Shown here: positions 2,424 to 58,665 of the stretch, in pieces
How positions within the stretch are numbered: the first letter of the stretch is position 1
Layout: every line of letters begins with the position of its first letter
NCBI GenBank assembly: GCA_949128115.1
Contig: CASBRS010000033.1
Span: forward strand, 62,001-126,000
Source of the DNA: Anaspis maculata
Lineage: Eukaryota > Arthropoda > Insecta > Coleoptera > Scraptiidae
Direction: 5' to 3'
DNA length: 64,000 nucleotides
The notes under the pieces: generated by a model
What the model saw: only the letters and a program-made list of their open reading frames with translations
Database searches by the model: none
What the model was told of the DNA's origin: nothing
Made by a program: the position numbers and the translations under genes

Positions 2424-4549
2424 ACATTTCCAGTGGGTTTTCACAGATAAATCTCGAAATATTTGGTACGAGGGTACTCGAGGCGGACACTAATTCGAAA
2501 ATTGATCAGGACTCGTTCGCAAATTGATAAGATTTGAAAAAAAAAGCAATCAGGCTTCTGTCGTCCATCAGATCAGATTGTTGACCAACTCGGGTCGCCA
2601 AATTGTTGCACATCAATAAAAAAAAAATGACCATGACCGGTGTGTGTTGATTATTTATGGTTTTCTTGTCGATCTGAACATCGCGAAGATGAAGAATAGG
2701 CTAGAAATTGGAAAGCTTCAACGTCTCGGAACTGTCCCGTTTATATCAATTCTTAAGTTTGGGGACGCCGCAGCCCCGAAAATTTTTCCAAATTTCGTCA
2801 TTTCCAGTGAGTTTTCACAAAATCCTTGATTTTTTGTCACGAGAGTACCTGAGGCGGACACTAATCCGAAAGTTGATCGGAAAATGATAGTTTTCAAACT
2901 GATAGATTTGAGGAAAATTCCGATCTGGCTTCTGTCGTCCTTCAGACCAGATTTTTGACCAATTCGGGTCGCCAAATTTCTGCCCATCAATGAAAAAAAG
3001 ACCATGACCGGTGTGTATTAATTATTTATGGTTTTCTTGTCGACCTGGACATCGCGCGGATGAGAAATCAGCTAGAAATTGGAAAGCTTTTGCGTTCGGA
3101 ACTGTCCCGTTCATATATATTCTTGAGTTTGGGGACGCCGCAGTCCCGGAAAAAAAATCATATCTCGTCATTTCCAGTAAGTTTTCACAAAAATATTGAT
3201 CTATTTGTCACGAGAGAACCCGAGGCGGACATTAATTCAAAAGTTGATCGGCATTCGTTTTCAAATTGATCACATTTGAGGAAAATTCCGATCTGGCCTC
3301 TGTCGTCCTTCAGATCAGATTGTTGACTAATTCGGGTGGTCAAATTTCTGCCCATCAATGAAAAAATGACCATGACCGGTGTGTGTTGATTATTTATGGT
3401 TTTCTTGTCCATCTGGACATCGCGAAGATGAGAAATCGGCTAGAAATTGGAAAGCTTTTGCGTCCCGGAACTGTCCCGTTTGTAGATACTCTTGAGTTTG
3501 GGGACGCCGCAACCCCGGAAAAAAATTCAAATTTTGTCATTTGCAGTGAATTTTCACAAAAACGATCTATTTGTCACAAGAGAACCCGAGGCGGAAATTA
3601 AATCGAGAGTAGTTGATCGGGACTCGATTTCAAATTGATCAGATTTGAGGAAAATTCCGATCTGGCTTTTGTCGTCCTTCAGATCAGATTGTTAACCAAT
3701 TCGGGTCGCCAAATTTTTGCTCATCAATAAAAAAAATTATCAAAACCGGTGTGTGTTGATTATTTATGGTTTTCTTGTCCATCTGGACATCGCGAAAATG
3801 AGAAATCGGCTAGAAAATGGAAAGCTTTTGCGTCCTGGAACTGTCCCGTTTATACATATTGTTACGAAGCTCGCGACCATCCCGGCTCTTTCTAGAGAAA
3901 TCTAGCATCACGCGTTGCATTCGGGAAGCATCGAGAGACTTCAGCGGTAGGTCACGACACGTCGAGACTTCTGGCAGAGGTGCCGTAGAAAATACGCGTA
4001 TATTCTCGACGCAGATACCAGAGAAATCCTCGTGTGCTGTAAACATCATCAGGAAGCATCCAGAACCTTCGATGCCACTATAAGAGAGGAGCTTGACCTG
4101 GCATCGAGAGAGTTTGGAATCGAGCGATCGTGGCGTCAACACCTTAAGCGACATTGTGAATTTCTGAGCGATTAATAATTCTGTGCGTTATTTAGTTGTA
4201 TCGGTAGCAGCTAATAAAGTGCAGTTTGTTTACAAGTAAATCAGCGCATTTAATTTCGAGATAGGCGAACCCGAATATCGTAACAATATTCTTGAGTTTG
4301 GGGACGCCGCAGCCCCGGAGAAAAATTCAAATTTTGACATTTCCAGTGAGTTTTCACAAAAATTGTGATCTATTTGTCACGAGAGAACCCGAGGCGGACA
4401 TTAATTCGAAAGTTGATCGGGATTCGTTTTCAAATTGATCAGATTTGAGAAAAATTCCAATCTGGCTTCTGTCGTCCTTCAGATCAGATTGTTGACCAAT
4501 TCGGCTGGCCAAATTTTTGTCCATCAATAAAAAAATTACCATTACCGGT
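2424..4549. repeat. ~370-bp tandem repeat array
   Basis: One partial and four complete copies end at ACCATGACCGG near 2630, 3001, 3369, 3739 and 4538, which gives a period of about 370 bp. Each unit contains TTTGGGGACGCCGC, CGAGGCGGACA and CTTCTGTCGTCCTTCAGA in the same order. The fourth copy is interrupted by a solo LTR and the array stops at the tail of the non-LTR retrotransposon. Short ORFs recur once per unit and look accidental. Confidence 0.9.
3860..4285 (+). mobile_element. Solo LTR, Gypsy-like, with 4-bp target duplication
   Basis: The insert begins TGTTACGAAGC and ends CGTAACA, the TG...CA ends of an LTR. It is flanked by ATAT at 3856-3859 and 4286-4289. Neighbouring copies of the 370-bp unit supply the empty site (a TATATTCTTGAG-like run), so both borders are firm. 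It contains AATAAA near 4212 and a CACTATAAGAGAG run near 4076 that could be a promoter element. A related LTR lies at 46778-47229 on the other strand. No internal region remains. Confidence 0.85.
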
Positions 4550-7565: not shown

Positions 7566-7568
7566 CTA
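7560..7568 (-). promoter_or_regulatory. Leaky stop context, UAG CAA UUA
   Basis: On the minus strand the ORF1 stop reads TAG CAA TTA. This matches the UAG-CARYYA type-I readthrough context known from tobamoviruses. ORF2 continues in the same frame with 42 open codons before the endonuclease. The match and the frame are seen directly; functional readthrough is inferred. Confidence 0.6.
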
Positions 7569-8870
7569 TCCGGCAACAGAACCGAGCAACTTCTCCCTCA
7601 GCCTGTCAGCCACTATGCCGTAAGCATGGCAGCTGTTATATTCGAACGCGGCATGATCAGTTTTTATATCGATGCTCTTTTTGTTTTTCAAAGAAATGCA
7701 GTTACAGCACTGTCTGACCTTGGCTTCACAGCTTTTCAAATCATGTGGGCCAGCGCATATGGGACAACTGACGGGGTTATCGCAGTTTGCCGAGCCATGG
7801 TGGAAAGAGTTACACTTAAAACATCGCAGTACAGAGATAGCGTCGTATACTACACAGTTGTCAAAACCTATTATAACATGTTTACAGCGGATGAGGGCTC
7901 TGTAAGTGTCAGCATCAACACCAATTGTCGCTTGGAAAATCTTTTTGTTACTCTTAGTAGGAGCGAACTTAATCAAGCTACACTTCGAGTCCTCCGCAAA
8001 AACTGAGCGATTCTGAGCCTTGAGAAAGCGGATAAATTCGCCCTCCTCAAGATCCTGCGTAACTCCTACAATGCGAACCTGAGGCTGAATTGATTTGAGC
8101 CCGCGAACATTATAATCAGAATTAAGTTTTTCCTCGGCAAGCTTCAAAAGTTTTACACGGTCCGCGGTGTCACTGCAGTTTATCAATATACCCGAATTGC
8201 GCAGATCCCTAACCTCACTGATGTTGATATCATTTTCTACGGGGTTAATTTTCTTCAGAATATCAGCCTTGAGTTCGGAGGCTGGAACATTCGCACTCTT
8301 AGACCTTATTACAACCTTTGCCTCAGTTTTTGAGGCAGCGCCAGCATAACTCCGAGGAGTGGCCGAACCAACCGGCTGCGACAATGCCGTGCCACAACCC
8401 AAAGCGCCAGCCGACTTACACTCCATAAGTGTGCTCAACCTCCCAATCTGCTCCCGAAGCTCTCCATTCTCACCCCTCAACAAGCGCACCTCCTCCAACA
8501 ACTCCGAAGCCTCCAGCCTACCTCCAGTCGCAACATCATCGCACTTACCGGATAGCAACTTCGAGAGCTTCTCCAGCTTATCCTCGACCAAAATCTCAAA
8601 CTTAAGATCGAAACCAGCCTGCAAATCCTTCCTGAGCTTATCGAACTTGGCATCGAAGAGAGAGGTCCACCCATCTTTCAGGTTCACCTCGCATCGCAAT
8701 TTGCAAGTGTCGCACAAATATAGAAAGCCTTTTCGCTCATTTAACAATTTGAATTCGGTGTCGCTCACTCCAACACAAGAACAATGATACGAATCACCAC
8801 AAACGCCCTCACAACGAATCAGAGCTCCTTTGCCGCGGCTAGTTCTACATTTAGCACAGCTACTAGCCAT
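7566..8870 (-). CDS. Retrotransposon ORF1: PHD finger and CCHC zinc-knuckle protein
   Basis: A 434-residue RNA-binding protein of the element. The start is the ATG at 8870 (context TTGCCATGG), because the PHD finger begins five residues later. The PHD ligands are C5, C8, C20, C24, H29, C32, C53 and C56, a C4HC3 pattern. A leucine-rich probable coiled coil follows at about 115-145, then a central domain. C-terminal knuckles lie at about 350-391 (CFKCNSFHHGSANC, CPICAGPHDLKSC, then CCNC). PHD-containing ORF1 proteins are a known type among non-LTR elements. The ORF ends in UAG, followed in frame by ORF2. Confidence 0.9.
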   Translation of the reverse strand: MASSCAKCRTSRGKGALIRCEGVCGDSYHCSCVGVSDTEFKLLNERKGFLYLCDTCKLRCEVNLKDGWTSLFDAKFDKLRKDLQAGFDLKFEILVEDKLEKLSKLLSGKCDDVATGGRLEASELLEEVRLLRGENGELREQIGRLSTLMECKSAGALGCGTALSQPVGSATPRSYAGAASKTEAKVVIRSKSANVPASELKADILKKINPVENDINISEVRDLRNSGILINCSDTADRVKLLKLAEEKLNSDYNVRGLKSIQPQVRIVGVTQDLEEGEFIRFLKAQNRSVFAEDSKCSLIKFAPTKSNKKIFQATIGVDADTYRALIRCKHVIIGFDNCVVYDAISVLRCFKCNSFHHGSANCDNPVSCPICAGPHDLKSCEAKVRQCCNCISLKNKKSIDIKTDHAAFEYNSCHAYGIVADRLREKLLGSVAG

Positions 8871-9567
8871 GGCAAGAGAATGAGATGAACGCACAAAAAA
8901 TAATACGACAAATTAGATGAAATGTTGTCAATAGATAAAACTAAAGAGTCTGTACATATATAAAATCAAATCTGTGTATAAATAAATAAAATCCGTGTAT
9001 AAATAAAATTTGCGTATAAAATCAGTGTACAAACAGAACAAAAACAACAACAAACGAAAACTCCAGCAGGACCGTGAGGCCGGGCGTAGCACAGAGTAGA
9101 GGTAGGTATTATGGTCTGTCACATTGGTGCAGAAGGTCAGAAATAAGGTAATATATATAATAGGTAAATAAATAAAGGTCAGTAGATAGCATACAAGCAC
9201 TGCGCCCAGCAGTGCGGTGCAACTGCACCGAAAATAAACAACATAAACAATAATCCACTCAGGTGTACGTTTACTATCAGCCAGAAGAAGACAAAAAGTA
9301 CGACCGCACAAAAACGCAAGAATATTATGGAACGAACTCACCAAACTGTAGAAACCGGCAGAATTCGGGCCAATGGGCCAGGAAAGCACCCAAACTAGAG
9401 GCCACAGCCCCCACACAGTTCAAAGGATCCAAAATCACAACCCAAAAAACCGAAAATACGCCAACAAACAGACCAAACCGCGGAGCACAAATCACACGAC
9501 CACTCACACACCTATCTTATCTTCTTCGTTTATATTATATAAACTGAACTGAACTGAACCTGAACTG

Positions 9568-29883: not shown

Positions 29884-32240
29884 CACGATAGAATCTCAGA
29901 ATATTCCACAACCTTCGAGAGTGTTCTGGAATGTTCCACAATGATCTGGATGTTTCCGAACGTTCCAGACTATTCCCGAATATTCCAGAATATACCGGAA
30001 CATTCTGGAATGGTGCGAAATGATCTCGAATACTCTCAAATATTCTGTACTGTACCTCTACTAATAGGTGGCCTCACACCAAAAAGGCTTCAAATAGTCC
30101 ACAATGTTCCAGAACCTTCCCCTTTCTTTCAAACTTTCAAGAGTGTCCAGGAATAATCCACAATGATCTGGAATGTTCCGGGATGTTCTTGATCGTTTCA
30201 GACTATTCTCAAGCATTCTAGAACATACCGAAACATGCTGGAATGTAATGGAATGATCTCGAATGATCGCGAATTACCCGAACGTTTCAGAATATATCGA
30301 AACATTCTGGAATGTTGTGGAATGTTCCAGACTATTCCCGAACATTCCAGAACATACCGGAACATTTTGGAATGTTATAGAATGATCTCGAAGGTTCCAT
30401 AATGATTTGGAATGTTCCAGGATCTTCCAAACATTACGGAACATACCGAAACATCCTAGAATGTTGTGGAATGATCTCGAATGTTTCACAATGATCTGGA
30501 ATGTTCCGGGATGTTTTAGAACGTTCCAGACTATTCCCGAACATTCTAGAACATACCGGAACATTCTGGGATGTTGTGGGACGATCTAGAATATTCCACA
30601 ATGAATTGAAATGTTCCGGAAAGTTTCCGAACGTTCCAGATTCTCGAACATACCGGAACATTCTTGAATGTTGTGGGATGATAACGAATGCGCCGCAATG
30701 ATCTAGAATGTTCAGGGATGTTTCTGAACGTTCCAGATCATTCACGACTATTCCAGAATATACTGGAACATTCTGCAATGTTGTGAAATGATCTTGAAAG
30801 TTTCACAATGAGTTGAAATGTTACTGAATGTTGCCGAACCTTCCAGACTATTCCCGACAATACCGGAACAATCTGAGAGTTGTGGAATGATCACGAATGT
30901 TCCACAGTGATCTGGGATATTCTGGGATGTTTCCGAACGTTCCAGGCTATTCCCGAACATACCGGAACATTCTGGGATGTTGTAGAAATATCTTGAATGT
31001 TCCACAATGTTTTGCAATTTTCCAGGATTTTCCGAACATTTCAGAACATACCGGAACATTCTGGAATGTTGAGGAACGATCTCGAGTCTCCCACATTGAA
31101 TTAAGATGTTCTGGAATGTTTCCAAGCGTTCCAGACCATTCCCGAACATAGCCGAACATTCTGGGATGTTGTGGAATGATCTCGACTGTTCTACAATGAT
31201 CTGAAACGTTCCGGGATGTTTCGAACGTTCCAACGTTCCCCAAACATTCTAGAACATACCGAAACATTCTGGAATGTTGTGGAGCGATCCAGAATGATCC
31301 ACAGTGATCTGGAATGGTTCCGGGATGTTTCTGAACGTTCCATATCATTCCCGACCATTTCAGAATATACTGGAACACTCTGGAATGTTGTAAAATGATC
31401 TCGAATGTTCCACAATGATCTGGAATATTCTGTGATGTTTCCAAACGTTCCAGACTATTTCCGACCATTTTGGAACATACTGGAACATTCTGGAATGTTC
31501 TATTATGATCTTGAATGATCCACAATGATTTGGAATGTTACGGGATTTTCCGAACATCTAGGATCATACCGGAACATTCTGCAATATTGTGAAACGATCT
31601 CGAACGTTCCACAATGAATTGAAATGTTCTGGAATGTTTCCGAACGTTCCAGACTATTCCCGAACATACTTGAGCATTCCGAAACTTTGCGGATTGATCA
31701 CGAATGCTCCACAATAATCTGGAATGTTCCGGGATGTTTCTGAGCGTCCCAGATTATTCCGACTATTCCAGAACATACCGGAAGATTGTGGAATGTCATG
31801 GATCGATCTTGAATGTTCCACAATGATCTGGAATGTTCCGCGATGTTTCCGAACGTTGCAGGCGAACATTCCCGAACATTCTGAAACATACCAAAACATT
31901 CTGGAATGTCGTGGAATTATCTAGAATACTTTTGAATGTTCTGGACTGTCCTAGACATTCTAGAGGGCGAGAGTTCCAGCCCTTATATCTTTAAAAAACA
32001 CGCCCCCCAGATAAATCCGGGTATCTTCTTCATTGATGGGGGATGGAGGGCTACCACACCATATAACTCCTTTGATCGTACGGGGACTCGTTTGAGTTTT
32101 GGCACGCACAGTGTACACTTATTGTTATTATCCGAACGTTCCAGACTATTCCTGAACATTCCAGGACCTACGGAACATTCTGGAATGTTGTGGAATGCTT
32201 CCGAATACCCTCGAATGTTCTGGACTGCTCTAGACATTTC
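29884..32240. repeat. 110-bp satellite made of 10-bp GAAnnTTCnn steps
   Basis: About 20 copies of a roughly 100-110-bp unit, each recognisable by ATACCGGAACATTCTGG. Within a unit, GAA and TTC triplets alternate every 5 bp, so the unit is eleven 10-bp steps of GAAnnTTCnn with point changes. This pattern equals the heat-shock element consensus. Many overlapping ORFs on both strands are artefacts of the repeat. A non-satellite block splits the array at about 31965-32130. Confidence 0.92.
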
Positions 32241-43049: not shown

Positions 43050-44400
43050 GATGGCACGACTTCCAGCTTGGCCGCAACAACAACAGCTGAGGCAACAAGG
43101 GAGCTCACTGAAATTCTGAAAGCTCTGAAAAACACAAGGAGGCTCATCAGGGCTCCAACTAAAACATTATGACACAAGGGGGGCCCGATGGAGCTTCATG
43201 ACCCACGGTGAAAATTGTACGGGACTCAGCAGAATTTCAAATGATATAGACGACACAATGGAGCCAGACAAAGTTCTGTTTGACAAAATAAGGCAAAAAA
43301 GGCTCACCTCTGGGCTTACTGGTGCCCTGAAAGCCATGAAAAAACATGACGGAGCTGATCAAAACTACACTTGCAGACAAAGGGGGGGGACAACAAGGGC
43401 CGGAATATTATATGGAGACCGATAGGGCTCCGAATGACATGAAAGCACAAGGGTGCTTAGTGCTCCGGAAGTAACGCAAAATACAAGGAGACTGGCAGGT
43501 CTCAAAATAACATTGAAGACCCAAGAAGAAGGCCCAATGAAGCTCTGGATAACAGAAGATGATAGTAGAGGGCTCAATGGAATTCTGAGAGCTATGAAAC
43601 ACATAACGGCACTTGAGGACGCAAGGGGGTCCGATAGGAGGCTGAATATCACATGAAGGCACAAGGGGTTCACTAGTGCCCCAACAGCCTCGGAAAAATA
43701 AAAGGAAACTCAACAGAGCTTCAATCGACGTTGAAGACACAAGGGGGCCTACTGGAGATCTGTATAACATAATATAGACTTATTGGCACGTATTTTCTCT
43801 GGAAGTCTATCAGCTCTGGGGCTTATCAGAGCTTTGATTCCATTTCAAGAAACAAAGGGGCCCGGTAGGGCTCCGAATATGACATGTTGCCACAACGCTG
43901 CTTGCTGCTCCGGAAGTCACAGGAAATGCAAGGGGGCATAGCAGGACTTCAAATCACACCGGGGCCCAGTGGGGTTCTTGAAACACAAGTTTTCAAAATG
44001 GGGGCTTCTGGAACTCTCAAAGCTATGAAAAATATGAGAAGGGTAATTATAGGTCTCAAAATTACACTTAAGGACGTAAAAAGCCCGACAAGGCTTCGAA
44101 CACCACATGAAGGCACAAGGGGCTTACCAGTTCTCCGAAAGTCAAGGAACAATGTAAGGCGGCTCGGCAGAGCTCAGAAAAAATACAGGGAAACTGATCA
44201 GGCTAGGGTTCCGAATATGACATCGAAACACAAAGGTGCTTACTGCTACGAAAGTCACGGAGAAATGCAAGGGGCTCGCCAAAGGCTTTAAACTGCACTA
44301 AAGACACAAGGAGGCCCAATGGAGGTCTAGATAGCACAAGAACGCAACAGAGGGCTTGCTGGGATCCTGGTAGTCATGAAAAAACCTGAAGGGCTAATTG
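43050..44400. repeat. GGGCCC-type degenerate satellite, left block
   Basis: Irregular 50-70-bp units built around ACACAAGGGGGCCC, GGGCTC and TCTGAAAG. It is the inverted match of 51160-52350. ORFs are repeat artefacts. Confidence 0.8.
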
Positions 44401-44640
44401 AAACCTGTCCGGTCACGGTCACCTGAATTTCGTGTTTGGAGCCGGAGTAGTTTGTGTTTGAAGTCGCAGTCTTTCGTGTTCAAAGTCGACATGTCATTAT
44501 GAAAGTTGAAGTTTTCCATTTTTAAATTCAAAAATCGAGATATGAGTCGAAGCTGATCGCGTTCAAAGTCACAAGTGGAAAAAATCGTGTTGAAGTCGGA
44601 ATGTCGTGGTTGGAGTCAGAATGTCGAGATTGAAACAAAG
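44401..44640. repeat. GTTTGAAGTCG short repeat tract
   Basis: Repeats of about 20 bp around TGTTTGAAGTCG and AAAGTCGACATG, downstream of gene copy 1. The same tract lies at 48255-48600, 50930-51150 and 54600-54740. Confidence 0.7.
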
Positions 44641-45176
44641 CTTTTTAGTTTAAAGTTCCAGTTCTCATGCTTGAGGTCTGAATTGCTAATTTTTTCATCA
44701 ACAGATTACATTAGATTTCAACTCCTAAATTTTTTATTTTTCCCGCAAAAGTTTGAGGTTTTTTTTTTCATTCATTGGCTCGAAACCTGGGAGGATATTT
44801 CAAATCTTTTGGATAATCTGGAATAGTCATGAAACTGTGCAAAACTTTTCCAATTTGACCCACTCTGTATCTTCCCTAATAACAAAAAGGAATTTCACCC
44901 ATAGTGGTGTCACCAATTGGGAACACACTGTATAGGTCCTAATTGCATTATTGCTCCGGGTTATCTTCCATAGACTGTGGAATCAGGGATTCAATAAACT
45001 CAATGTCAAATATGAAGTAGGTGAATTGTGAATCGTATTATTGTTGCTGGTAGCGCGGTTTTTTTTTTCTCAAGAAAAAAAGTCTATCAAGTCATCCAGT
45101 GAAATTTTTTAATTTATCATTCATTGTAGACAAGTTTGACGTCTTGACGGCCTAGCCCGTCATCTTAACAGGCTGA

Positions 45177-45479
45177 TTAGCGGCCGTGTCCTGCGCCTGC
45201 TCCTCGGCCTGCTCCCCTGCCGCTGCCGTGTCCGCCATAGGTCTGAGGCTCTAGAATCACGAAAATTGAAAAATTATATTATCAGCTTTTATTCAAACAA
45301 TAACAATCAATTGAGTACGAGGATGAGTAGTGAGCTATTATTATCATCAAATGATTTCAAGAAAACACGAAATGAAACTTCAATCCAAACCTACTTTCTT
45401 GATCTGCTTGATCTGCATATGCATAAAGCACTGATTGAAGAACAATCACCAGAACCATCACAAAGAGCTTGAAGTTCAT
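45177..45479 (-). CDS. Secreted glycine-rich peptide, copy 1 (two exons)
   Basis: Exon 1 is 45479-45395 and exon 2 is 45250-45177, joined by a 144-base GT-AG intron in phase 1. The 52-residue product starts MNFKLFVMVLVIVLQSVLYA, a clear signal peptide with likely cleavage after AYA. The mature part of about 30 residues begins acidic (DQADQE) and ends in a basic Gly-rich tail, YGGHGSGRGAGR... ending GHGR. It differs from copy 2 by one silent base. The TATA position reads TACAAAA, unlike copy 2. Palindrome C sits about 175 bp upstream of the ATG. It could be antimicrobial, cuticular or an effector; function unknown. Confidence 0.78.
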
Positions 45480-45653
45480 GTTGTCCGAATTGGATAACTG
45501 TGAGCTTCAAATGGAATCTTGACGTCTTTTGTAGCAAAATCGCCATCAATAAAACCTTGTACGTAAGGATAATCAAGTACTCAAAACTGTTAGAAGTATA
45601 TAAACTATTTAACTACATGTAATGTGTTGAACAATAACTACAAGTTGTTATAC

Positions 45654-46269
45654 TAGTCCAAGAGCTGGCGACAAAAAAAAGTGCAACAGTTTTCTAAAGG
45701 CTGAAACTCTGGAATATGTTAGATTACTCAATTACATCCATGAAATAACTAGTCAGACACCGGTTCATTAGAACCTGCTCAATCGGCAGCCAAAAGAAGT
45801 CCGAAATGCCCGAAAGGACAGTTCTGACAACGCACAGCATTGTTGTCTGACGCACAGCTCTGTTGTCTGATGCAAATATATCAGCAGTTGCATCTGTTGT
45901 CTGAGTTACGGTTCAAATGAATCGCCCGTAGCGACATACAGATTTGGAGAAAAAATCAGAGAAGCCTTGCGTAATGGAACCATCTAATGAAGAGAGGTAA
46001 GTACCTAGGTGTGGTCATAGCCGTAACTCAGACAACAGCTGACAGCTGTGGGTCAGACAACAGAGCTGTGCGTCAGATAACAAAGCTGTGCGTTGTCAGA
46101 ACTGTCCGTTCGGGCATTTCGGACTTTTTTTGGCTGCCGATTGAGGAGGTTCTAATGAACCGGTGTCTGACTGTTTATTTCATGGATGTAATTGAGTAAT
46201 CTAACATATTCCAGAGTTTCAGCCTTTAGAAAACTGTTGCACTTTTTTTTGTTGCCAGCTCTCCGACTA
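45654..46269. mobile_element. Palindromic element C, 3-bp target duplication TAC
   Basis: A 616-bp inverted repeat with ends TAGTCCAAGAGCTGGC and, inverted, TAGTCGGAGAGCTGGC. TAC flanks it at 45651-45653 and 46270-46272. The inverted duplicate at 49911-49925 preserves the empty site with a single TAC (GTTATACC on that strand), proving the borders. Arms carry repeats of CTGTTGTCTGACGCACAG. Confidence 0.92.
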
Positions 46270-46777
46270 TACCCAGCCAGGAGTTATTTTCTATTGTGAA
46301 TTGTGGAACCACCAGTCATTTTGCTGAAATTTATTTTGCAATTTCTATTATAAAGACCCGATAAAAATATAAGAACTGTTTTTTCGGTACGAGCCGTGAA
46401 GTACATACGTCAATTATAACCTGGTTCCTGTGTCGCAATGTCCATTTTCTAGTGGGCAAAATATGAAGAAGTATAGACCATGCTTCTCTCACGTTATCTT
46501 TGAGAACAGAAATTCCAAAGGCATGCATCATCTGATAGATACATCTAGACGGCTACGGATCGGTTTTGCCAATTTTGATGAAAAAAAAACAATTGTCAAA
46601 CAAAAAAAATCCACCGCACTTGGTTTGAGGCACAATTGATTGTGATGTAAAATTCCATGTTATTTATAAAAATGCTAAATTTCACTCAAACTTTCACTCA
46701 ACTCACAACTGGCTGGCTCACAATTTGGCCACAATAAACAACAAAGTATGGGTAGAAAATAGGTGCTATAGAATATT

Positions 46778-47229
46778 GATACGGTATTCGGGTTCACCTA
46801 TTTCGAAATCAATCGCGCTGATTTACTCGTGAACAAACTGCACTTCATCCACTACTACCGATACAACTGAATAACGCACTCAGTTATTAATCGTCCAGAA
46901 ATTCACAATGTCGCTTGAGATGTTATCGCCACGGTCGCTTGATTCCAACTCTCTCCCGATGCCAGGTCGAGTTCCACTCTTATAGTGGCATCAAAGGTTC
47001 TGGATGCTTCCTGTTCGATTGTTGGAGTCTCCAGCACACAAGGATTTTTCTGGTATCTGTGTCGAGATGGATTCCAGAGCCGAATGGAATTGCGTACCTT
47101 CTACGGCACCTTCACCAGAACTCTCGACGTGTCGTGACCTACCGCTGCAATCTCTCGATGCTTCTCGAACGCGACGCGGGAATCTAGATTTCTCCGAAAA
47201 GAACCGGGATGGTCGCGAGGTTCGTAACA
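46778..47229 (-). mobile_element. Solo LTR related to the 3860 LTR
   Basis: On the minus strand it runs from TGTTACGAACCTCGCGACC to GAATACCGTATCA and aligns along its length with 3860-4285, with an extra stretch of about 25 bp. The final CGTAACA has become CGTATCA. No target duplication is visible, so the flanks have been rearranged. Confidence 0.8.
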
Positions 47230-47920
47230 TCATTTTTCCAAGCCTTTTTCTCACGAAAAAGCCTGAAAGTTCGAGGGCTTTTGTTGATGGATATGAACTT
47301 TGCATACCTTGAAGGCTGTTAAAAATTTTAGAATTTTCCAAAATAAGCTGATCAATGTTCAGAATGAACTTCCAAAGCTTCCCAGCAAAGCTTGATTTTT
47401 TCAAATGTCGATTTGATCTCGAGCTTCCTAAACTATCAGATTCTCAGATATCTGAAAGCCCTCGTTGAAATCAAGTTTCAAAAACTAAAATGTTAGGCCT
47501 TTTAATAAGTGAATAAAAATAGTTAATATAAATATAAATAAAAATAGTTAAGTGAATAAGTTAATAGAAAAAGCCTCACTCAAGCTTGACAACAGGAAGC
47601 AGTGTAGTTGCAACATCCCTCCAAAATACGAAAGATTCGAAGCTTTCCAAGAAAGCCTTGTTAAAAAAAATACAGTTGTAGCTTTCAGAGCCAATTTGTT
47701 TTATTCTTACGGCTTTTTAAAACTTTTGGAGGAAAAGCTTGAAATCGAAGCTTTTCAGAGTTTTATGTAAGTGCTTCTGAGCTGGGGTAGGGTAGCGGCA
47801 AAGGGGTTGGAGATAAAAACTTATTGAATCGATGTTTCCCCATAAATAAAAGCCCAATTGTTTTTGCTTGAAAAGCTATTTGTAAGGAGTCTGGAATCAG
47901 TGGGAGGGAAAAACTAGTCT
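47230..47920. repeat. Third copy of the 33-34 kb repeat family
   Basis: 47230-47660 matches 33105-33480 (GAAAGTTCGAG, GACAACAGGAAGCAG) and 47768-47920 matches the tandem units at 33590-34255. No gene. Confidence 0.7.
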
Positions 47921-47989
47921 TGAACTTACTGGCAATGTGGGCATTTTAGAAAAGATCAGGGGATGGGTTGAAATTTCTGAATTTATTTT

Positions 47990-48155
47990 TAACAGACGGC
48001 CTCGTAGCACAGGGGTCAGCATCTGCCTGTGGTACGTAGGTTTGCGGGCTCGTATCCCGCTGTAGTCTAGGTGTTGTGTTCGTATCACACTGCAATTTAT
48101 CTGTACTAAATATAAAATGTATCAGCAATAAAGGCGAGCTCCTATAGCCGAAAAA
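47990..48155 (+). mobile_element. Second, different tRNA-derived SINE
   Basis: GTAGCACAGGGGTC fits an A box and GGCTCGTATCC a slightly changed B box 33 bp later. An AT-rich body and an A8 run follow. The sequence differs from the SINE at 41044. No target duplication found. Confidence 0.6.
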
Positions 48156-48254
48156 AAACTGATAAGAAGAAAACAAACTTTTTTCACATGTAGAGAAAAT
48201 TAGATTGCTACACTACCCCTCTCCTGCAAGAAAAATAGCACGACGAGCCATACT

Positions 48255-48603
48255 ATGAGTCCAAGTTTTTTGCGTTTGAAGTCAAAATTGTGAAAAAGGG
48301 TCGAAGTTTTTGTGTTTGACGAAGTTTTGTAGTTGAAGTCGGAATGCTGAGATGAAAGTTTTTTTATTCAAAGTTGCAGTTTTCCAAGGTTAAAGTCCGA
48401 ATTATACATTTTTATCACGATTTCCGGATGAAAGCCCGGTTGAGAGTCAAATATTCAAGATAAAAGTCATGTTCTCATGACTTCATGTGAGGAAAGTTTT
48501 TGTGTTGAAGATCGAAATTTCAAGATTAAAGTCGGATATTCTTGTGTTTGAAGTCGGAACTTTGAAATTGGAATCAAAAATTCGAAGTCAAAATTCCATG
48601 ATT
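48255..48603. repeat. GTTTGAAGTCG repeat tract between the duplication arms
   Basis: Same 15-20-bp degenerate repeat as downstream of the peptide genes. It leads directly into the Gypsy relic. Confidence 0.65.
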
Positions 48604-49160
48604 TGATTCAGAGAAAGCAATCGTAGAGGAAGAAGACCACGTTGCTTTGGATGTGGAAAGGACGGACACCTGCAACGTGATTGCTGGCAACAGTACCGTT
48701 CAGCAGACTGTTCCATGCTGGAACGGGGAGCTGCTGATCAAGGAAGTCAACATCGTCCTGGAAAGGGTCATGGCAGTGGCAACACGGATGGTCTTTTTCG
48801 AAGACCAGCAGAGTGGCAACGTTGCAGTCAAGGCAATTGTCAATGAAACCTCAAGGAATTAGACTACGGCTGAGCTCAAGAAAGAGCAGCGCGAAAAACC
48901 AGCCATGGGTTCACTTGCTGAAAGAAAGGAACTTGGCCAGGACAGACCGGAATGGGCCGAGATATCTGATGGAGGGCTTGAATCCAAGGCTCTTTGGGCT
49001 CAGTGGAATTCTAGTATTAGGTAATACTAGGTAGTCAAGAGGATTAATGACGTCGTGTACAGAATCCAGCGAGCCCCGAGAGTCCACGTTGACCGCCTTG
49101 CACTTTACACTGGAAGTAACGATAAGCCTATTCGAGACGAACAGGCTCAAGAGGGGGCAG
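48604..49160 (+). pseudogene. Internally deleted Gypsy-like retrotransposon (gag knuckle, pol scraps)
   Basis: Three pieces survive in element order. At 48643-48684 is a nucleocapsid zinc knuckle, CFGCGKDGHLQRDC (C-x2-C-x4-H-x4-C). At about 48919-49024 is a pol linker with RPEWAEISDG and KALWAQWNSS, typical of the stretch before integrase. At 49037-49068 and on to the stop at 49166 is the integrase C-terminus, VVYRIQRAPR followed by VHVDRLALY. Protease, most of reverse transcriptase, RNase H and the integrase core are missing. A purine-rich tract, AGAGGGGGCAG, immediately precedes the LTR. Confidence 0.85.
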
Positions 49161-49383
49161 TGTTATGAGCGGCGATTCTGGAGGACACGCGATGTTCCAG
49201 ACACTTCCCATTGGGTCGCAGCGTACAAGTGTGTGGAGTTCTGGACATTTCCAGAATATACGCGATGGCTTAGCGATCAGAATACGTGGAGACTTGACCG
49301 TGCGAGTAAGACACATCTGTTCATTTTGGTGGAGGTGCCGGCTCCGCCGCACGTTGGGATTGCACTCGAAATACGCACAATAA
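49161..49383 (+). mobile_element. 3' LTR of the deleted Gypsy-like element
   Basis: It starts TGTTATGAGCGGCGATTC directly after the polypurine tract. The first 80 bp match the LTR at 59446 at about three bases in four. The right border is placed where the inverted duplication begins and may be later. Confidence 0.7.
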
Positions 49384-50025
49384 TGTTCTATAGCACCTAT
49401 TTTCTACCCATACTTTGTTGTTGGCCAAATTGTGAGCCAGCCAGTTGTGACTTGAGTGAAACTTTGAAAGAAATTTTACATTTTTATAAATAACATGGAG
49501 TTTCACATCACTATTAATTGTGCCTCAAACCAAGTGCGGTGGACTTTTTTGTTTGACAGTTGTTTTTTTTTAATCAAAATTGGCAAAACCGATCCGTAGC
49601 TGCCTAGATGTATCTGTATGTAGTGGCATGCCTAGGCGTATGTAGATGACGCATGCCAAATTTGGAATTTCTGTTCCTCAAAGATAACGTAAGAGAAGCA
49701 TGGTCTATACTTCTTCATATTTTGCCCACTAGAAAATGGACATTGCGACACAGGAGGCAGGTTATTAATGACGTATGTACTTTACGGCTCGTAGTGAAAA
49801 AACAATACCTATATTTTTATCGGGTCTTTATAGGAATTGCAAAATAAATTTCAGCAAAATGACTAGTATTTCCACAATCAACAATAGAGAATAATTTTTG
49901 GATAGGTATAACCACTTGTAGTTATTGTTAAACATATTACATGTACTTAAATAGTTTATATACTTTTAACAGTTTTGAGTACTTGATTATCCTCACGTAC
50001 AAGGTTTTCTTGATGGCGATTTCGC

Positions 50026-50032
50026 TATAAAA
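50026..50032 (+). promoter_or_regulatory. TATA box of peptide gene copy 2
   Basis: TATAAAA lies 54 bp before the ATG, with TCACAGT near 50056 at the expected start-site distance. Copy 3 keeps TATAAAT at the same place; copy 1 has TACAAAA. Confidence 0.7.
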
Positions 50033-50079
50033 GACGTCAAAGTTCCATTTGAAGCTCACAGTTATCCAATTCGGACAAC

Positions 50080-50382
50080 ATGAACTTCAAGCTCTTTGTG
50101 ATGGTTCTGGTGATTGTTCTTCAATCAGTGCTTTATGCATATGCAGATCAAGCAGATCAAGAAAGTAGGTTTGGATTGAAGTTTCATTTCGTGTTTTCTT
50201 GAAATCATTTTATGATAATAATAGCTCACTACTCATCCTCACACTCAATTAATTTTTATTGTTTGAATAAAAGCTGATGATATAATTTTTCAATTTTCGT
50301 GATTCTAGAGCCTCAGACCTATGGCGGACACGGCAGCGGCAGGGGAGCGGGCCGAGGAGCAGGCGCAGGACACGGCCGCTAA
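50080..50382 (+). CDS. Secreted glycine-rich peptide, copy 2 (two exons)
   Basis: Exon 1 is 50080-50164 and exon 2 is 50309-50382, with a 144-base intron (GTAGGT...TTCTAG) splitting a Lys codon in phase 1. The 52-residue product has a strong signal peptide (about residues 1-22), then an acidic DQADQE start and a Gly/Arg/His tail ending GHGR. Half the tail is glycine. Upstream TATAAAA and a short 5' UTR, and downstream ATTAAA near 50447, complete a compact gene. Copy 3 confirms the frame: the AGxG motif, the splice phase and the final H-x-x-stop all align. Size and composition resemble secreted antimicrobial or effector peptides, but no known family is recognised. Confidence 0.82.
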
Positions 50383-51159
50383 TCAGCCCGTGAAGATGAC
50401 GGGCTAGGCCGTCAAGACGTCCAACTTGTCTACAATGAATGATAAATTAAAAAATTTCACTGGATGACTTGATAGACTTTTTCTCTTGAGAAAAAAAGGG
50501 GTACCAGCAACAATAATACGATTCACAATTCATCTACTCCATATTTGACATTGAGTTTATTGAATTCCTGATTCTATAGTCTATGGAAGATAACCTGTGA
50601 GCAATAAGGCAATTAGGACCTATACAGTGTGTTCCAAATTGGTGACACCACTATGGATGAGATCCCTCTTTGTTATTAGGGGAGATACGGAATGGGTCAA
50701 ATTGGAAAAGTCTTGCACAGTTTCATGACTATTCCAGATCATCTAGAAGATTTCAATTATTTTCCCTGGTTTTGAGCCAATGAATAAAAGAAAATAAAAA
50801 CCTCAAATGTTTGCGAAAAAAATGAGAAATTCAGCAGTTGAAATCTAATGTAATCTGTTGATGGAAAAATTAGAAATTCAGACTTCAAGCATGAGAACTG
50901 CCACTTTAAACAAAAAAGCTTTGTTTCCATCTTGACATTCTGACTCCAACCACGACATTCCGACTTCAACACGATTTTTTCCACTTGTGACTTTGAACGC
51001 GATCAGCTTCGACTTATATTTCGATTTTCGAATTTTGAAATGGAAAACTTCAACTTTCATAATGACATGTCGACTTCGAACACGAAAGACCGCGACTTCA
51101 AACACAAACTACTTCGGCTTCAAACACGAAATTCAGCGTGACCGGACAGGTTTCAATTA

Positions 51160-53940
51160 GACCTTCAGGTTTTTTTCATGTCTACCAGGATCCCAGCAAG
51201 CCCTCTGTTGCGTTATTGTGCTATCCAGACCTCCATTTGGCCTCCTTGTGTCTTAAGTGCAGTTTAAAGCCTTTGGTGAGCCCCTTGCATTTCTTCGTGA
51301 CTTTCTTAGCGGTAAGCACCTTTGTGTTTCCATGTCATATTCGGAACCCTATTCTGATGAGTTTCCCTGTATTTTTTCTGAGCTCTGCCGAGCCCCCTTA
51401 CATCGTTCCGTGACTTTCGGAGCACTAGTAAGCTCCTTGTGCCTTCATGTGTGTTCGGAGCCCTGTCGGGCTTTCCACGTCTTTAAGTGTGATTTTGAGA
51501 CCTATAATCACCCTTCTTATATTTTTCATAGCTTTGAGAGTTTCAGGAACCCTCATTTTGAAAACTTGTGTTTTCAAGAGCCCCTGTGATTTGAAGTCCT
51601 GCTATGCTCCCTTGCATTTCCTGTGACTTCCGGAGCAGCAAGCAGCGTTGTACCAACATGTCATATTCGGAGCCCTACCGGGCCCCCTTAAAATGTAATC
51701 GAAGCTCTGATAAGCCCCAGAGCTGATAGAGTTCCAGAGAAAATACGTACCACTAAGTCTATATTATGTGATACAGATCTCCAGTAGGCCCCATTGTGTC
51801 TTCAACGTCGATTGAAGCTCTGTTGAGTTTCTTTTATTTTTCCGAGGCTTTCGGGGCACTAGTGAACCCCTTGTGCCCACATGTGATATTCAACCTCCTA
51901 TCGGGCCCCCTTGCGTCCTCAAGTGCCATTATGTGTTTCACAGCTCTCAGAATTCCATTGAGCCCTCTTTCATCATCTTCTGTTATCCAGAGCTTCATTG
52001 GGCCTTCTTCTTGTGTCTTAAATGTAATTTGGAGACCTGCTAGTCCCCTTGTATTTTGCGTTACCTTCAGAGCACTAAGGACCTTTGTGCTGTCATGTCA
52101 TTTGGAGCCCTATCGGTCTTCATATAATATTCCTACTCTTGTTGTGTCCCCCCCCTTTGTCTGCAAGTGTAGTTTTGATCAGCCCCGTCACGTTTTTTCA
52201 TGGCTTTCAGGGTGCCAGTAATCCCAGAGGTAAGCCTTTTTAGCCTTATTTTGTTAAACAGAACTTCGTCGGGCTCCATTGTGTCGTCTACATCATTTGA
52301 AATTCTGCTGAGTCCCGTACAATTTTCACCGTGGGTCATGGAGCTCCATCGGGCCCCATTGTATCCTAATGTATTATTTGGAGCCCTGATGAGTCTCCTT
52401 GTGTTTTTCGTAGCATTCAGGATTTCAGCAAGCTCCTTTGCTGCCCTAGTTGCCCTTCAAGGGCCCCCTTGTCTCTTCAACGTCTTGAAGCTCTGCTGAG
52501 CCCCATAGCATTTCTTCGTGGCTTACGGAGCTCCATCGAGTTCCCTTGTTTCTTCATGTACCGTTTGGAGTCCTGATGAGCTCATTTATTCCTTCTGTAG
52601 CTTTCAGAATTCCAGTGAGCCCCATTGTACCTTCCTGCGTTGTTAGAGGTCCTAGTAGCCCTCTAGGAGCCCCCTTGTTTCTTCAAAGTCTTTTGAAGCC
52701 CTGCTGAGCCTTATAGCATTTTTCCATGGCTTACGGAGCTCTATATCCGGTCCCCTTGTTTCCTCATGTATCGTTTGGAGCCCTGAGAGACTTCTCATTC
52801 CTTCCGTAGATTTGAGAATATCAGTCAGCCCCCTTGTTGCCCTAGTTGCCCTCTAAGGGCATTCTCGTTCTTTTAACGTCTTTTGAAGCCCTGCTGAGCC
52901 CCCTAGCATTTTTCCGTGACTAACGGAGTTCTATCGGATCCCCTAATGCCCCCATGTATCGTTTGGAACTCTGAAAAGTCCTTTTTTTGTAGCCTTCAGA
53001 ATTCCAGTGAGCCCCCTTGTGCCTTTTTACGCTGTTAGAGGCCCTAGTGATCTTTCGTGGGCCCCATTGTTTCTTTAACATCTTTTGAGACCCCCGTGAG
53101 CCCCCTCGCCTTTTTCTATGTCTTTTGGATTAGAGCATTAGTGAGTTTCTTGTGCTTTCATGTGATATTCGAAGCCATATCGGCTCCTTTGTGTCCGAAA
53201 GGGTAGTTTGGAGACCCAATTAGCCCCCTTATCCCTAATCGATGAAAACGGTTTCGATTTTTACCTAAAGGGCGTGCTTTTGAAGATATAAGGGCTGGAA
53301 GTTTTTCGCTCTCTAGAAATGTCTAGAACAATCCAATCCAGAACTTATGTTTTTTCACAGCCAGCGATCTGGATTCAAGCAAACTTCATTGGGCTTCTTT
53401 GTTTCTTCAACGTGTTTTGAAGCTCCGCTGAGCCCCCTCACATTTCCCTTGACTTTTGGTGAGAAAATAGGCACCTTGTGTTTTCAGGTGACGTTCACAG
53501 CCCTATCAAGCCCTTTTGTGTCCTCAAGTGTAGTTCAGGGTCCTAATTACCCCACTCATGTTTTCTCTTGACTCTCAGAGTACTAGAATAATAAGCTTCC
53601 TCTTGCTTTGTTTTGTTATAGAAGGCTCCATGTGGCCCCCTCATCCTTTATGTCCTCACTACAAAAGTTAATATCAATATCTTTAGTTTGAAACCCTGCT
53701 GAGCATCATTGCTTTTTCCCGTGGCTTCGGAGCTCTATCGGGCTTCCTTTTGTCCTCATGTGTTGTTTGGGGCCCTGATGAGCCCCTTTGTGTTTTTTGT
53801 GGTTCTAAGAATTCCACCAAAAGCCCTTGTGCCTTTATGTGATATTTGGAGCCCTATTGAACATCCTTGTTTTCTTGTCTTTTCTGAGCTCTTTTGAGCC
53901 CCCTTTTGTCTTCATGTGAATATAATGAGTCTCTTAACAC
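51160..53940. repeat. GGGCCC-type degenerate satellite, right block
   Basis: The complement of the 43-44.4 kb satellite (AGCCCCCTTGTGTC, GGAGCTC) extended to 2.8 kb, with longer 170-180-bp periodicity near 52.4-53.1 kb. ORFs are artefacts. Confidence 0.8.
53225..53330 (-). repeat. Fragment of the 32-kb block
   Basis: Reverse complement of about 32215-32330 (CTTCCAGCCCTTATATCTTC). Confidence 0.75.
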
Positions 53941-54375
53941 GTTCACTGCCACCGAAATTTTGCGATTTTTCTTACCAGGTCATTTATGTCATGTTATAGT
54001 GCAATGAAAACTAAGCCCTCTAGCACAGGTCAAAGTTCGAAATACACCTTGGTTTTTCGAAAAATTACGAAAAATTGAGTCTAACATAATAATTTTTTGG
54101 GGGCCAAATTTCGCATATATCAAAAAATCGAAAGAATGTCCATGCAATTGTCACCTCCTAGCTCGTGATGGACCGCTGCCCTTGTCAATATGCAGCGTAC
54201 TCAAGCCAGGAACCTGAAAAAATGAAAACTCCCTGCTGGTCCCATGAGACCAGCGTGGCAGTGAACGTGTTAACGTTTCGAAGCCTTAGTGGTTCAATCA
54301 TGCATGCTTTTTTTTCGGTTTTCTTGCGAATGTTCCGTGTGACTAATTATCCGGCCACGCATCGACAAGTGTCGT
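53941..54375. other. No gene seen
   Basis: Non-satellite DNA between the satellite and a minisatellite. No coding support. Confidence 0.4.
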
Positions 54376-54600
54376 TCCTTTTGCGACGAATTTTCCGCGC
54401 GACAAATTGTCCGTGCGACGATGTCCGCGCGACGAATTGTCCGTGCGACAAAATTGTCCGCGCAACGAACTGTCCGCGCGATGAATTGTCCGTGCGACGA
54501 ATTGTCCGTGCGACAAAATTGTCCGCGCGACGAATTGTCCGCGCGACGAATTGTCCGCAACGAGTTGCCAGCGACAAATTGTCCGTACGACGAATTGTCC
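54376..54600. repeat. 16-bp CGCGCGACGAATTGTC minisatellite
   Basis: About 13 copies of GCGACGAATTGTCCGC and close variants. Open frames on both strands (Arg/Asp/Cys-rich) come from the repeat. Confidence 0.9.
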
Positions 54601-55199
54601 TAGAACCGAAATTTAGACTTCAAACACAAAAACTACGACTTTAAACAAGAGCAGCTCCAATTTTTTCTCTGGATTTTGAGTTTCAAACACCGGAAACATC
54701 GACTTCCATATATCGACATGTCGACTTCAAACACGAGAAACGTTGGCATGCTCATGGCATTTTTCATTATCTTCTCAGCAATGTATCAGAACTCATACAA
54801 AATTAAGTTTTGCGCTTGAATTTTCATTTCCACTGCTGAATTTTTCAATCTTGCCGCAACATTTTTTGGTTTTTATGAACCCCAATTTAACCCACTCTGC
54901 ATCTCCCATAATAGCAAAATTATCTATAGAGGTGTTATCAATTTGGGACACACTGTAGGTCCTAATTGCCTTATTGCTCACAGGTTATCTTTCATAGACT
55001 GTGGAATTAAAAATTCGGTATTTTCAATGTCAAGTATAAAGTAGGTGGATGGTGAATCATATCATTGTTGCTACTAGCGCCATTTTTCCGGGTAAAAAAA
55101 GTCCATTGGTTCATCCAGTGGAATTGTTTTATTCATCATTCATTGTAGACAGTTGTACGTCTCGACGGCCTGGCCTAGCTCGTCATCTTCACGCACTAA
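54601..55199 (-). repeat. 3' flank shared with gene copies 1 and 2
   Basis: Matches 44400-45150 in order: GTTTGAAGTC tract, GGACACACTGTAGGTCCTAAT, then the 3' UTR with CTACAATGAATGAT and AATAAA near 55126. It shows that copy 3 was duplicated with its surroundings. Confidence 0.8.
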
Positions 55200-56577
55200 T
55201 TAGCCCCTGTGCATTCTGCCTGTTACAAAGTCCGGTCTATGGGTCGTGTGTCCCATTCCTTGGCCTGCTTTGTCGCTTGTGTGCATTCTGTCTGTTCCAA
55301 AGTTTGGTCTATAGGTCGTGTATCCTGTTTCTCGGCCTGGTCCCCCGCCAGTGTGCATCCTGTCTGTTCCAAAGTCCGGTCTATAGGTTGTGTATCTTGT
55401 TCCTCGGTCTGGTCCCCCGCCAGTGTGCATTCTGTCTGTTCCAAAGTTCGGTCTATAGGTCGTGTATCTTGTTTCTCGGCCTGCTGCCCCGCTTGTGTGC
55501 ATTCTGTCTGTTCCAAAATCCGGTCTATAGGTCGTGTATCTTATTCCTTGGCCTGCTCTCTCGCTTGTGTGCATTCTGTCTGTTCCAGAGACCGGTCTAT
55601 AGGTCGTGTATCTTATTCCTTGGTCTGCTTCCCCGCTTGTGTGCATTCGGTCTGTTCCAGAGACCGGTCTATAGGTCGTGTATCTCATTCCTCGGCCTGC
55701 TTCCCCGCTTGTGTGGATTATGTCTGTTCCAAAGTCCGGTCTATAGGTCGTGTATCTCATTCCTTGGCCTGCTTCCTCGCTTGTGTGCATTCTGTCTGTT
55801 CCAAAGCCGTAACGGTGTGTCGGAGGCACTAGAATCACGAATATTGAAAAATTCAATTGAAGCCTAGATTCTACATTGGATAAAAATCTGTTTGGAGGCT
55901 CGTACGGTTAGCTAGTCTGAGAGCTAAGCGGCCGATTTGAAATAATAGCATTTTAACACGGAAGTGGCACATTTTTGTTTTTTAGATTGCTCTAAACGTC
56001 TTGCTGATAGGGCAAGAGACGTCGCCTAGCTGGCAACTGGTTGTCTTAGGCGGTGCAGTTATTTGAAGTGATAAGAAAATCATAAGCTCCATTTATGAAG
56101 GGTAGTTACATTAACATTCAACGTGAGCCGAGAACGGCAATGAAATTTCACTCAAAAGTTTTCGACAAGTTTGAAGCATTTTCGACTTCAATGATTGTGC
56201 TATTATTGAAACGCGGTAACAATAATTGGAGCATGCTTACCAGAAAAGGTCCAAGCGACATTAATTTGCTCAGCTTTGAAAAACCTGTCTCAAAGTTGCA
56301 ACAAGTTAAAGAGCTCAGGGCATATTTCCGAGCGTATTTCAACCTTCAAGGAAGAGTTTGGCGCTAATTATTTTTGCAAAAAACTTCTCTTGGTCCCCAT
56401 TCGATAAGCGTTAGCCAATCAATGTATGTATCATGAACAAATCAATAAATAAATAAATAAATAAATGAATGAATAATTACTTCTGGGATCATTACCTGTA
56501 GTTTGAGCCACTGATTGAACCGATGATGGAACAATCATCAGAACCACGACAGCAAAGAGCTTGATGTTTATGTTCAT
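55200..56577 (-). CDS. Secreted repeat protein, copy 3 of the peptide family (two exons)
   Basis: Exon 1 is 56577-56496 and exon 2 is 55828-55200, with a 667-base GT-AG intron in phase 1. The 236-residue product begins MNINIKLFAVVVLMIV, a signal peptide probably cut after QSVA. It then holds about nine tandem 24-residue units, RYTTYRPDFGTDRMHT plus a variable eight-residue tail such as SGEAGRGM. It ends HRG-stop, aligning with HGR-stop of copies 1 and 2. The DNA period is 72 bp. The core of each unit is conserved while the tail varies (SEEAGQGM, SGEADQGI, GGGPDRGT). Arg residues between units might allow processing into many peptides. TATAAAT lies 59 bp upstream. Function unknown. Confidence 0.75.
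55203..55826 (-). repeat. 72-bp coding minisatellite
   Basis: About 8.7 copies of a 72-bp unit (CCTATAGACCGGACTTTGGA on the minus strand) form exon 2 of gene copy 3. Since 72 is a multiple of three, other frames also stay open. Confidence 0.92.
55829..56495 (-). other. Enlarged intron of gene copy 3
   Basis: The last 35 bases match the 144-base introns of copies 1 and 2 (TCGTGATTCTAG). The middle 500 bp are unrelated, with an (AAAT)n run near 56442-56466, so a repeat probably inserted here. A 90-codon ORF on the plus strand at 56095-56367 is not recognised. Confidence 0.65.
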
Positions 56578-56629
56578 GTTGCTATATTTGGATAAGCTTG
56601 GTATGAGCTTGAATTGAAATTTTGATGCC

Positions 56630-56636
56630 ATTTATA
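56630..56636 (-). promoter_or_regulatory. TATA box of gene copy 3
   Basis: TATAAAT on the minus strand, in sequence aligned with the copy 2 promoter (GGCGATTTC before it, ATCCAA before the ATG). Confidence 0.65.
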
Positions 56637-56779
56637 GTGAAATCGCCATTTTAAAAACCTTGTGCAAGTAAGAATCCTATTCGAGTGCTTAAAAATGGAA
56701 AAAGTCGATAAACTATTCAAGCGCATGTGAAACTCGATAAAAAGTTGAGCAATAACCACGAGTAGGCACCTGTTTAAAA

Positions 56780-57000
56780 ATTATTAGCTATTGTGAATCG
56801 CGAAAGTAGTTATGATTCTGCTGTAATTTATCCTGCAAATCCAACAAAGACCTCATGAAATAATCTTGGTACTATTTTTTGATTACTGGCCTTGAAATAC
56901 CCACGTTGTCACTAACCTGGTTCCTAAATCGCAATGTCGATTTTTTAGTGGGCAAAATATCAAGAAGTAAAGACCATATTTCTCTCACGTTGATCGCGCG
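56780..57000. repeat. 5' flank shared with gene copies 1 and 2
   Basis: CCTGGTTCCTAAATCGCAATG and TAGTGGGCAAAATAT match 46425-46495 and, inverted, 49690-49760. This is the far limit of the duplicated block. Confidence 0.75.
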
Positions 57001-58439: not shown

Positions 58440-58665
58440 TGAATAATGAAATCAATGCAATGATATGGCTAAACTTATCGCCCGATATCAATCCAATTGA
58501 GAACATATGGTATGCTCTCCAAAGAAGACTGTAAGCACTACCAGTAGTACCAGTACAACTCACTACAAGACAAGAACTTATTGGATGCTCTAACCGCGAC
58601 GTGGAAAGAAATCCCTGTGGCAACTATCAATAACCTGTTCAAGGTTATAGCCCAGGAATAATAGA
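58440..58665 (+). pseudogene. Tc1/mariner transposase C-terminal relic
   Basis: A degraded frame gives LSPDINPIENIWYALQRRL, the conserved block holding the last catalytic acidic residue (the E of NPIE). A stop and then ATWKEIPVATINNLFKV before a stop match the family's C-terminal tail. The rest of the transposase is absent. Confidence 0.85.

Follow-up and report, generated by a model that had tools for sequence, protein, structure and literature searches.

Gene structure and layout

The window analysed here is a stretch of 64,000 nucleotides from the beetle Anaspis maculata (NCBI GenBank assembly GCA_949128115.1, contig CASBRS010000033.1, positions 62,001 to 126,000 of the forward strand), and it contains three two-exon genes, which we call A, B and C (Table 1). 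A first-pass annotation of this DNA had described them as a family of small secreted peptides, and its coordinates, strands and splice phases proved correct when the sequence was re-read as spliced genes. In A and B, 85 coding bases in exon 1 and 74 in exon 2 (stop codon counted) flank a 144-nt intron, and the two 52-residue peptides are identical. In C the exons contribute 82 and 629 coding bases around a 667-nt intron, for a product of 236 residues if the first donor is used; two further phase-1 donors would extend the product to 241 or 255 residues. For A and B, one of ten donors tested runs on into the common glycine-rich tail.

All three introns are in phase 1, have GT..AG borders and end in TTCGTGATTCTAG. 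Phase and place are kept in A, B and C, with lengths of 144 nt (A, B) and 667 nt (C). Between B and C the last 25 intron bases agree at 24 positions, a score reached in none of 1000 shuffles. A 20-base pattern spanning the acceptor, drawn up from the three genes themselves, occurs at these three places in the window and nowhere else with up to three mismatches (100 shuffles average 0.01 matches). The common phase-1 intron end of the first-pass annotation is borne out by this shared acceptor, as are the MN start, present in all three proteins, and the H-x-x-stop end, which is HGR-stop in A and B and HRG-stop in C.

Other parts of that annotation held with restrictions. The three genes do have about 410 bp of upstream DNA in common, and the TATA box is TATAAA in B and C, but A reads TACAAA at this position. 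The proposed duplicated blocks are of kilobase size for A and B, whereas C has the gene unit and its close flanks only. It had also been predicted that programs calling open reading frames (ORFs) would miss these genes. A and B, with 52 residues spread over two exons, are indeed absent as such from the ORF lists, but exon 2 of C is open for more than 200 codons and would be seen by such a program. Profiles built from the three genes, whose own scores follow from that construction, detected no fourth copy of the 5' or 3' block anywhere in the 64 kb at E 10 or better.

Because the same layout recurs three times, with a signal-peptide exon, a phase-1 intron, a common acceptor and a poly(A) signal at +64, +64 and +67 after the stop, we think it likely that A, B and C are intact-looking nuclear genes of a secreted-peptide family with a cysteine-free extracellular product. 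The sequence comparisons show at least two duplications of one unit, which runs from the upstream block through both exons and the phase-1 intron to the 3' region; one of these events gave rise to the inverted pair A/B. The paralogue C retains the control and export parts, with a second exon that consists of eight 24-residue repeats.

Table 1. Features of the three genes and their surroundings (positions in the window)
Feature	Position	Strand	Details
Gene A, coding span	45177-45479	minus	52 residues; exon 1 45479-45395, intron 45394-45251, exon 2 45250-45177 (incl. stop)
Gene B, coding span	50080-50382	plus	52 residues; exon 1 50080-50164, intron 50165-50308, exon 2 50309-50382 (incl. stop)
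Gene C, coding span	55200-56577	minus	236 residues by first donor; exon 1 56577-56496, intron 56495-55829, exon 2 55828-55200 (incl. stop)
TATA-box position of A	45528-45533	minus	TACAAA; from A-B alignment
TATA box of B	50026-50031	plus	TATAAA; 54 nt before ATG
TATA box of C	56631-56636	minus	TATAAA; 59 nt before ATG
Poly(A) signal of A	45108-45113	minus	ATTAAA; +64 after stop
Poly(A) signal of B	50446-50451	plus	ATTAAA; +64 after stop
Poly(A) signal of C	55128-55133	minus	AATAAA; +67 after stop
Upstream block of B and start of exon 1	49686-50119	plus	similar to C 56991-56529 (blastn)
Downstream block of C	54882-55204	minus	similar to A and B (blastn)
Repeat array within C exon 2	55208-55806	minus	period 72 bases, 8.3 copies (Tandem Repeats Finder); eight full 24-residue units
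Inverted-duplication arm with A	43180-46504		outer limits of inverted repeats, interrupted
Inverted-duplication arm with B	49677-52357		outer limits of inverted repeats, interrupted
Foldback (MITE-like) insertion upstream of A	45654-46269		two 237-nt arms; no counterpart in B

The inverted pair A and B

The arms that carry A and B differ by 186 mismatches in 2545 aligned bases. A second, independent scan of the arms returned eight inverted repeats with 89-96% complementarity and one more that corresponds to the foldback element described below. The coding sequences differ at a single one of 159 bases, a synonymous change, where 13.2 differences would be expected at the rate of the flanks, which have drifted by about 8% (170 of 2041 bases differ in promoter and downstream DNA; Fisher p 4e-5). 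Within and next to the genes, differences are found at 6 of 144 intron bases, at 14 of 159 promoter bases and at 9 of the first 178 bases downstream, and the contrast between coding sequence and all near non-coding DNA has a Fisher p of 0.004. The near-identity of the coding sequences amid drifted flanks favours selection on the peptide.

Some details weigh against selection as the sole cause. The contrast is weaker if coding sequence is compared with the intron and 3' part alone (p 0.027), and the longest identical run between A and B, 168 bases at 50043-50210, reaches 46 bases into the intron and has a probability of 0.0002 under even drift. Because this run enters the intron and is improbable under even drift, local gene conversion may account for part of the coding identity.

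Upstream of A lies a foldback element of about 0.6 kb that resembles a miniature inverted-repeat transposable element (MITE), with GTATA at either side; B has a single GTATA. This insertion and the altered TATA box may have changed the expression of A.

Conservation between C and the A/B pair

Similarity of C to A and B extends over the upstream region mentioned above, the first exon, the intron's last part and some 300 bases past the stop. In pairwise blastn, the 3' block gave 1.4e-67 for A-C and 2.9e-72 for B-C, and the 5' block gave 5.9e-62 for B-C; the A-C match of the 5' block falls into two pieces (3.4e-31 and 2.9e-19) because of the element inserted in A. Similarity by region was expressed as matches per aligned bases. 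Identities from a gap-tolerant aligner were dropped, since shuffled sequence averaged 0.73-0.84 on the same measure. In matches per aligned bases, B and C reach 163/215 in the distal upstream region, 111/154 in the proximal promoter, 41/52 in the signal-peptide codons and 74/87 in the first 88 nt past the stop. The remainder of exon 1 has 9 matches in 18 aligned bases, and in exon 2 the 46 matches among 74 aligned bases are scattered across 629 columns.

A few of these counts do not fit a gene in which only the working parts have been kept, and they must be set against our interpretation. The signal-peptide codons fall to 41/69 when gap columns are counted, the 23-nt 5' untranslated region (UTR) matches at only 12 positions in the automatic alignment, and the block at 50561-50680, which lies beyond the poly(A) signal, is conserved like the 3' UTR (95/111). 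Similarity fades further on (126/285 over 50681-50980). Given this conserved block and the poorly matching 5' UTR, conservation does not simply track the parts of the gene. The part that C shares with A and B is the whole unit minus the mature coding part, and its conservation is not limited to functional pieces.

Exon 2 of A has a short in-frame resemblance to one repeat unit of C, with a score reached in none of 2000 codon shuffles and none of 1000 dinucleotide shuffles. For exon 2 of B, which is one base off that of A, the score was reached in 24 of 2000 and 13 of 1000, respectively. A common origin of the second exons of A/B and C is possible on these grounds.

Mature peptides and the repeat array of C

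Signal peptides are typically cleaved after small residues, here A-x-A or S-x-A, and by this rule the predicted mature chain is about 30 residues long with a net charge of +1 in A and B, and about 212 residues long with a net charge of +8 in C. The mature chains contain no cysteine, no dibasic pair and no R-x-[KR]-R furin site. Since dibasic processing sites are missing, the chains, of about 30 residues in A and B and about 210 in C, are probably used whole. The C-terminal part of the A/B peptide shows a strict Gly-X alternation, which has a probability of 0.0006 at that composition.

Among the repeat units of C, nine of the 24 columns are invariant, and columns 9-17 make up nine of the 15 variable ones; the residue is changed in 15 of 18 variable codons. 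Read in the coding frame, the units have a ratio of nonsynonymous to synonymous change (pN/pS) of 1.22, a neutral-like value that does not prove positive selection and gives no indication that selection holds the C protein. The ratio is lower in three of the five other frames, at 0.63 and 0.38 (both with stops) and 0.42 (antisense, without stops), and codon position 2 shows no significant excess of change (0.17). We rejected the substitution analysis of the units as coding evidence, as it does not single out the coding frame. An open frame of 275 codons runs antisense to the array (55040-55864), and it is in this direction that the units have a pN/pS of 0.42, below that of the coding frame. 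This antisense frame is likely a by-product of the 72-base period.

These observations bear on whether the three genes are non-working copies that repeats or a mobile element have spread, with frames left open by chance and by the period of the array. The region is rich in repeats and element remnants, A has an altered TATA box and an insertion upstream, several open frames are expected in the C array from its period, and conservation continues beyond the poly(A) signal. Yet the A and B proteins are identical despite the drift of their flanks, splice sites, frame and poly(A) signal are kept in all three genes, and there are only three copies in 64 kb. We consider this explanation very unlikely.

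AlphaFold2 modelled exon 2 of C alone as a beta stack; the mean predicted local distance difference test (pLDDT) scores of the five models ran from 71.7 for the best down to 27.8. A control with the antisense frame of the array gave helices and a pLDDT of 41.3. Together with the Gly-X alternation of A/B and the cysteine-free repeat chain of C, such a fold would suit a structural secretion (silk, glue, egg coat or cuticle), with the Gly-X run and the repeat chain building the material. We regard this as unlikely. For a material, the A/B peptide is very short. The C models are widely spread, no solved structure matched the beta-stack model at E 0.001 (best 0.16), and AlphaFold2 has been described as giving confident but unrealistic beta-solenoids from repeats (PMC11795689). 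Despite the poorer antisense control, we treat the predicted beta stack as a hint and not as evidence of the fold.

Searches for relatives

The A/B peptide had no candidate among 5.8 billion proteins, and of 3267 word-sharing candidates for C in the same collection none scored at E 10 or better; we count this lack of a protein match against the gene-family interpretation. In Pfam, nothing matched A/B above the curated cut-off, and C matched Flocculin_t3 alone, at 20 bits, below the cut-off of 21.9 and with no single stretch passing. Rfam gave nothing at the gathering score. Among the sequences of the PDB, C had no match, while 11 entries matched A/B at up to E 10; the top one, to the Gly-Arg tails of SmD1 (0.0014), was taken as low complexity and rejected. 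In viral contigs, ten stretches fitted a pattern for C, none of which was confirmed, and the intron end had no match. A literature search by peptide strings of the family found no match, nor did one with general terms for effectors. A sigma-70 promoter scan was disregarded as unsuited to this kind of genome. Judged from its sequences, the three-member family looks genuine and is ordinary in kind, with no relative in the searches made.

Comparison with known secreted peptide families

The closest published pattern that we found is that of SSSGP-1 in the Hessian fly, a cluster of seven genes for small secreted salivary gland proteins in which one is inverted and encodes a protein identical to that of another (PMC2955719). 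In these genes promoter, UTRs, signal peptide and intron are conserved and the mature part has changed, and most SSSGP groups have one intron (PMC2955719). The Anaspis genes are likewise clustered, with one intron, an inverted copy with an identical protein, and a changed mature part behind a conserved promoter, UTRs and signal peptide; in the B-C comparison these parts are more conserved than the mature part, with the exception of the 5' UTR. They differ from the SSSGP-1 cluster in being three genes spread over 11 kb, with repeat-rich spacers and introns of 144 and 667 nt, and in their mature parts, only about 30 residues in A/B and a tandem repeat in C. The resemblance is a close one, in layout. 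The KQY and KHI cassette effectors of the pea aphid also combine a conserved signal-peptide part with divergent coding parts, but KQY1a has 37 exons, 33 of them of 15 bp or less, while A, B and C have two (PMC7495047).

Antimicrobial and defensin-like peptides offer parallels as well. The hymenoptaecin multipeptide precursor of the ant Camponotus has a single early intron and tandemly repeated secreted units, but its units are 97 residues long and follow EAEP and RR or KR sites, whereas those of C are 24 residues long and have no dibasic site (PMC3415428). Drosophila Baramicin A is likewise secreted and carries tandem repeats about as long as those of C, the 23-residue IM10-like peptides; unlike in C, these are separated by furin (RXRR) sites (PMC8423362). 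In the nasonins of Nasonia a phase-1 intron follows the signal peptide, and nasonin-2 has duplicated mature domains, but the nasonins are cysteine-stabilised and defensin-like, in contrast to the cysteine-free mature parts of A/B and C (PMC2853521).

A, B and C could be inducible antimicrobial peptides of the haemolymph, with A/B a Gly-rich cationic peptide and C a multi-unit precursor. The A/B chain is short, secreted and Gly-rich with Arg and His, C has a net charge of +8, and tandem secreted units and a phase-1 intron in this position both have precedents among the peptides just described. Inducible insect antimicrobial peptide genes typically have kappaB-like sites close to their promoters. 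With two degenerate patterns, no such site was matched in the upstream 182 nt of A (scanned only up to its insertion), 430 nt of B and 423 nt of C. There is also no dibasic or furin site between the units of C, the net charge of A/B is only +1, and neither product resembled any protein searched. This makes an antimicrobial function somewhat unlikely in our view, and a secretion of the exocrine, salivary type, to which we give a slight preference, is itself a tentative assignment.

The first-pass annotation had suggested an immune or effector role for a rapidly evolving family. The role found no support, with no homologue in the searches made, no kappaB-like match with the two patterns and no dibasic or furin site. 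As a matter of anatomy, the secreted family with a fast-changing mature part stands up, with control and signal-peptide parts in common and mature parts of A/B and C that barely align. The case for rapid evolution is based on three paralogues and on the C units, whose pN/pS is neutral-like.

In the secreted-family interpretation that we prefer, exon 1 would be a fixed expression and export cassette and exon 2 the changing part; the product would be exported through the ordinary secretory pathway and act outside the cell as a cysteine-free extracellular effector, with a microbe, a host or a secreted material such as silk or glue as its candidate targets. A stronger version proposes a new family with a fixed cassette of promoter, signal-peptide exon and 3' region around an exchangeable exon 2, the mature module having been rebuilt outright and not just mutated, so that a 30-residue Gly-X peptide stands beside a 24-residue-repeat beta-stack protein. 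Given the short in-frame resemblance between exon 2 and one C repeat unit, rebuilding from a single ancestral unit is conceivable; we regard this stronger version as doubtful. If it were true, A, B and C would show side by side an exon 2 rebuilt by tandem expansion within fixed surroundings. Rebuilding of the product behind an unchanged switch and export tag is known from families of insect salivary effectors and other secreted peptides. Two-exon genes of 52 residues are easily overlooked by annotation, and a confirmed case would point to gaps in gene sets.

Other elements in the window

An element of the long interspersed nuclear element (LINE) type occupies positions 4632-8894 on the minus strand. 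Its reverse transcriptase frame is 935 residues long (RVT_1, E 7.6e-34), and a 442-residue frame upstream of this one has a PHD-finger match just below the cut-off. For the protein encoded at 4632-7439 (minus), 1284 of 7995 candidates scored were relatives at E 0.001, and the best identity among the best 120 of these was 48%. Six of those 120 are named by species, and we take five of them to be from beetles and one from a moth. Bacterial genome contigs held one weak relative, and viral contigs none. By eye, the stretch at 48607-49165, in the spacer between A and B, resembles gag-pol retroelement remnants with a zinc-knuckle-like motif, and 58470-58660 resembles the end of a Tc1-type transposase. 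Tandem arrays are found at 2420-3860, with 3.9 copies of a 370-base unit, and at 30195-31839, where several with periods of 89-209 bases overlap.

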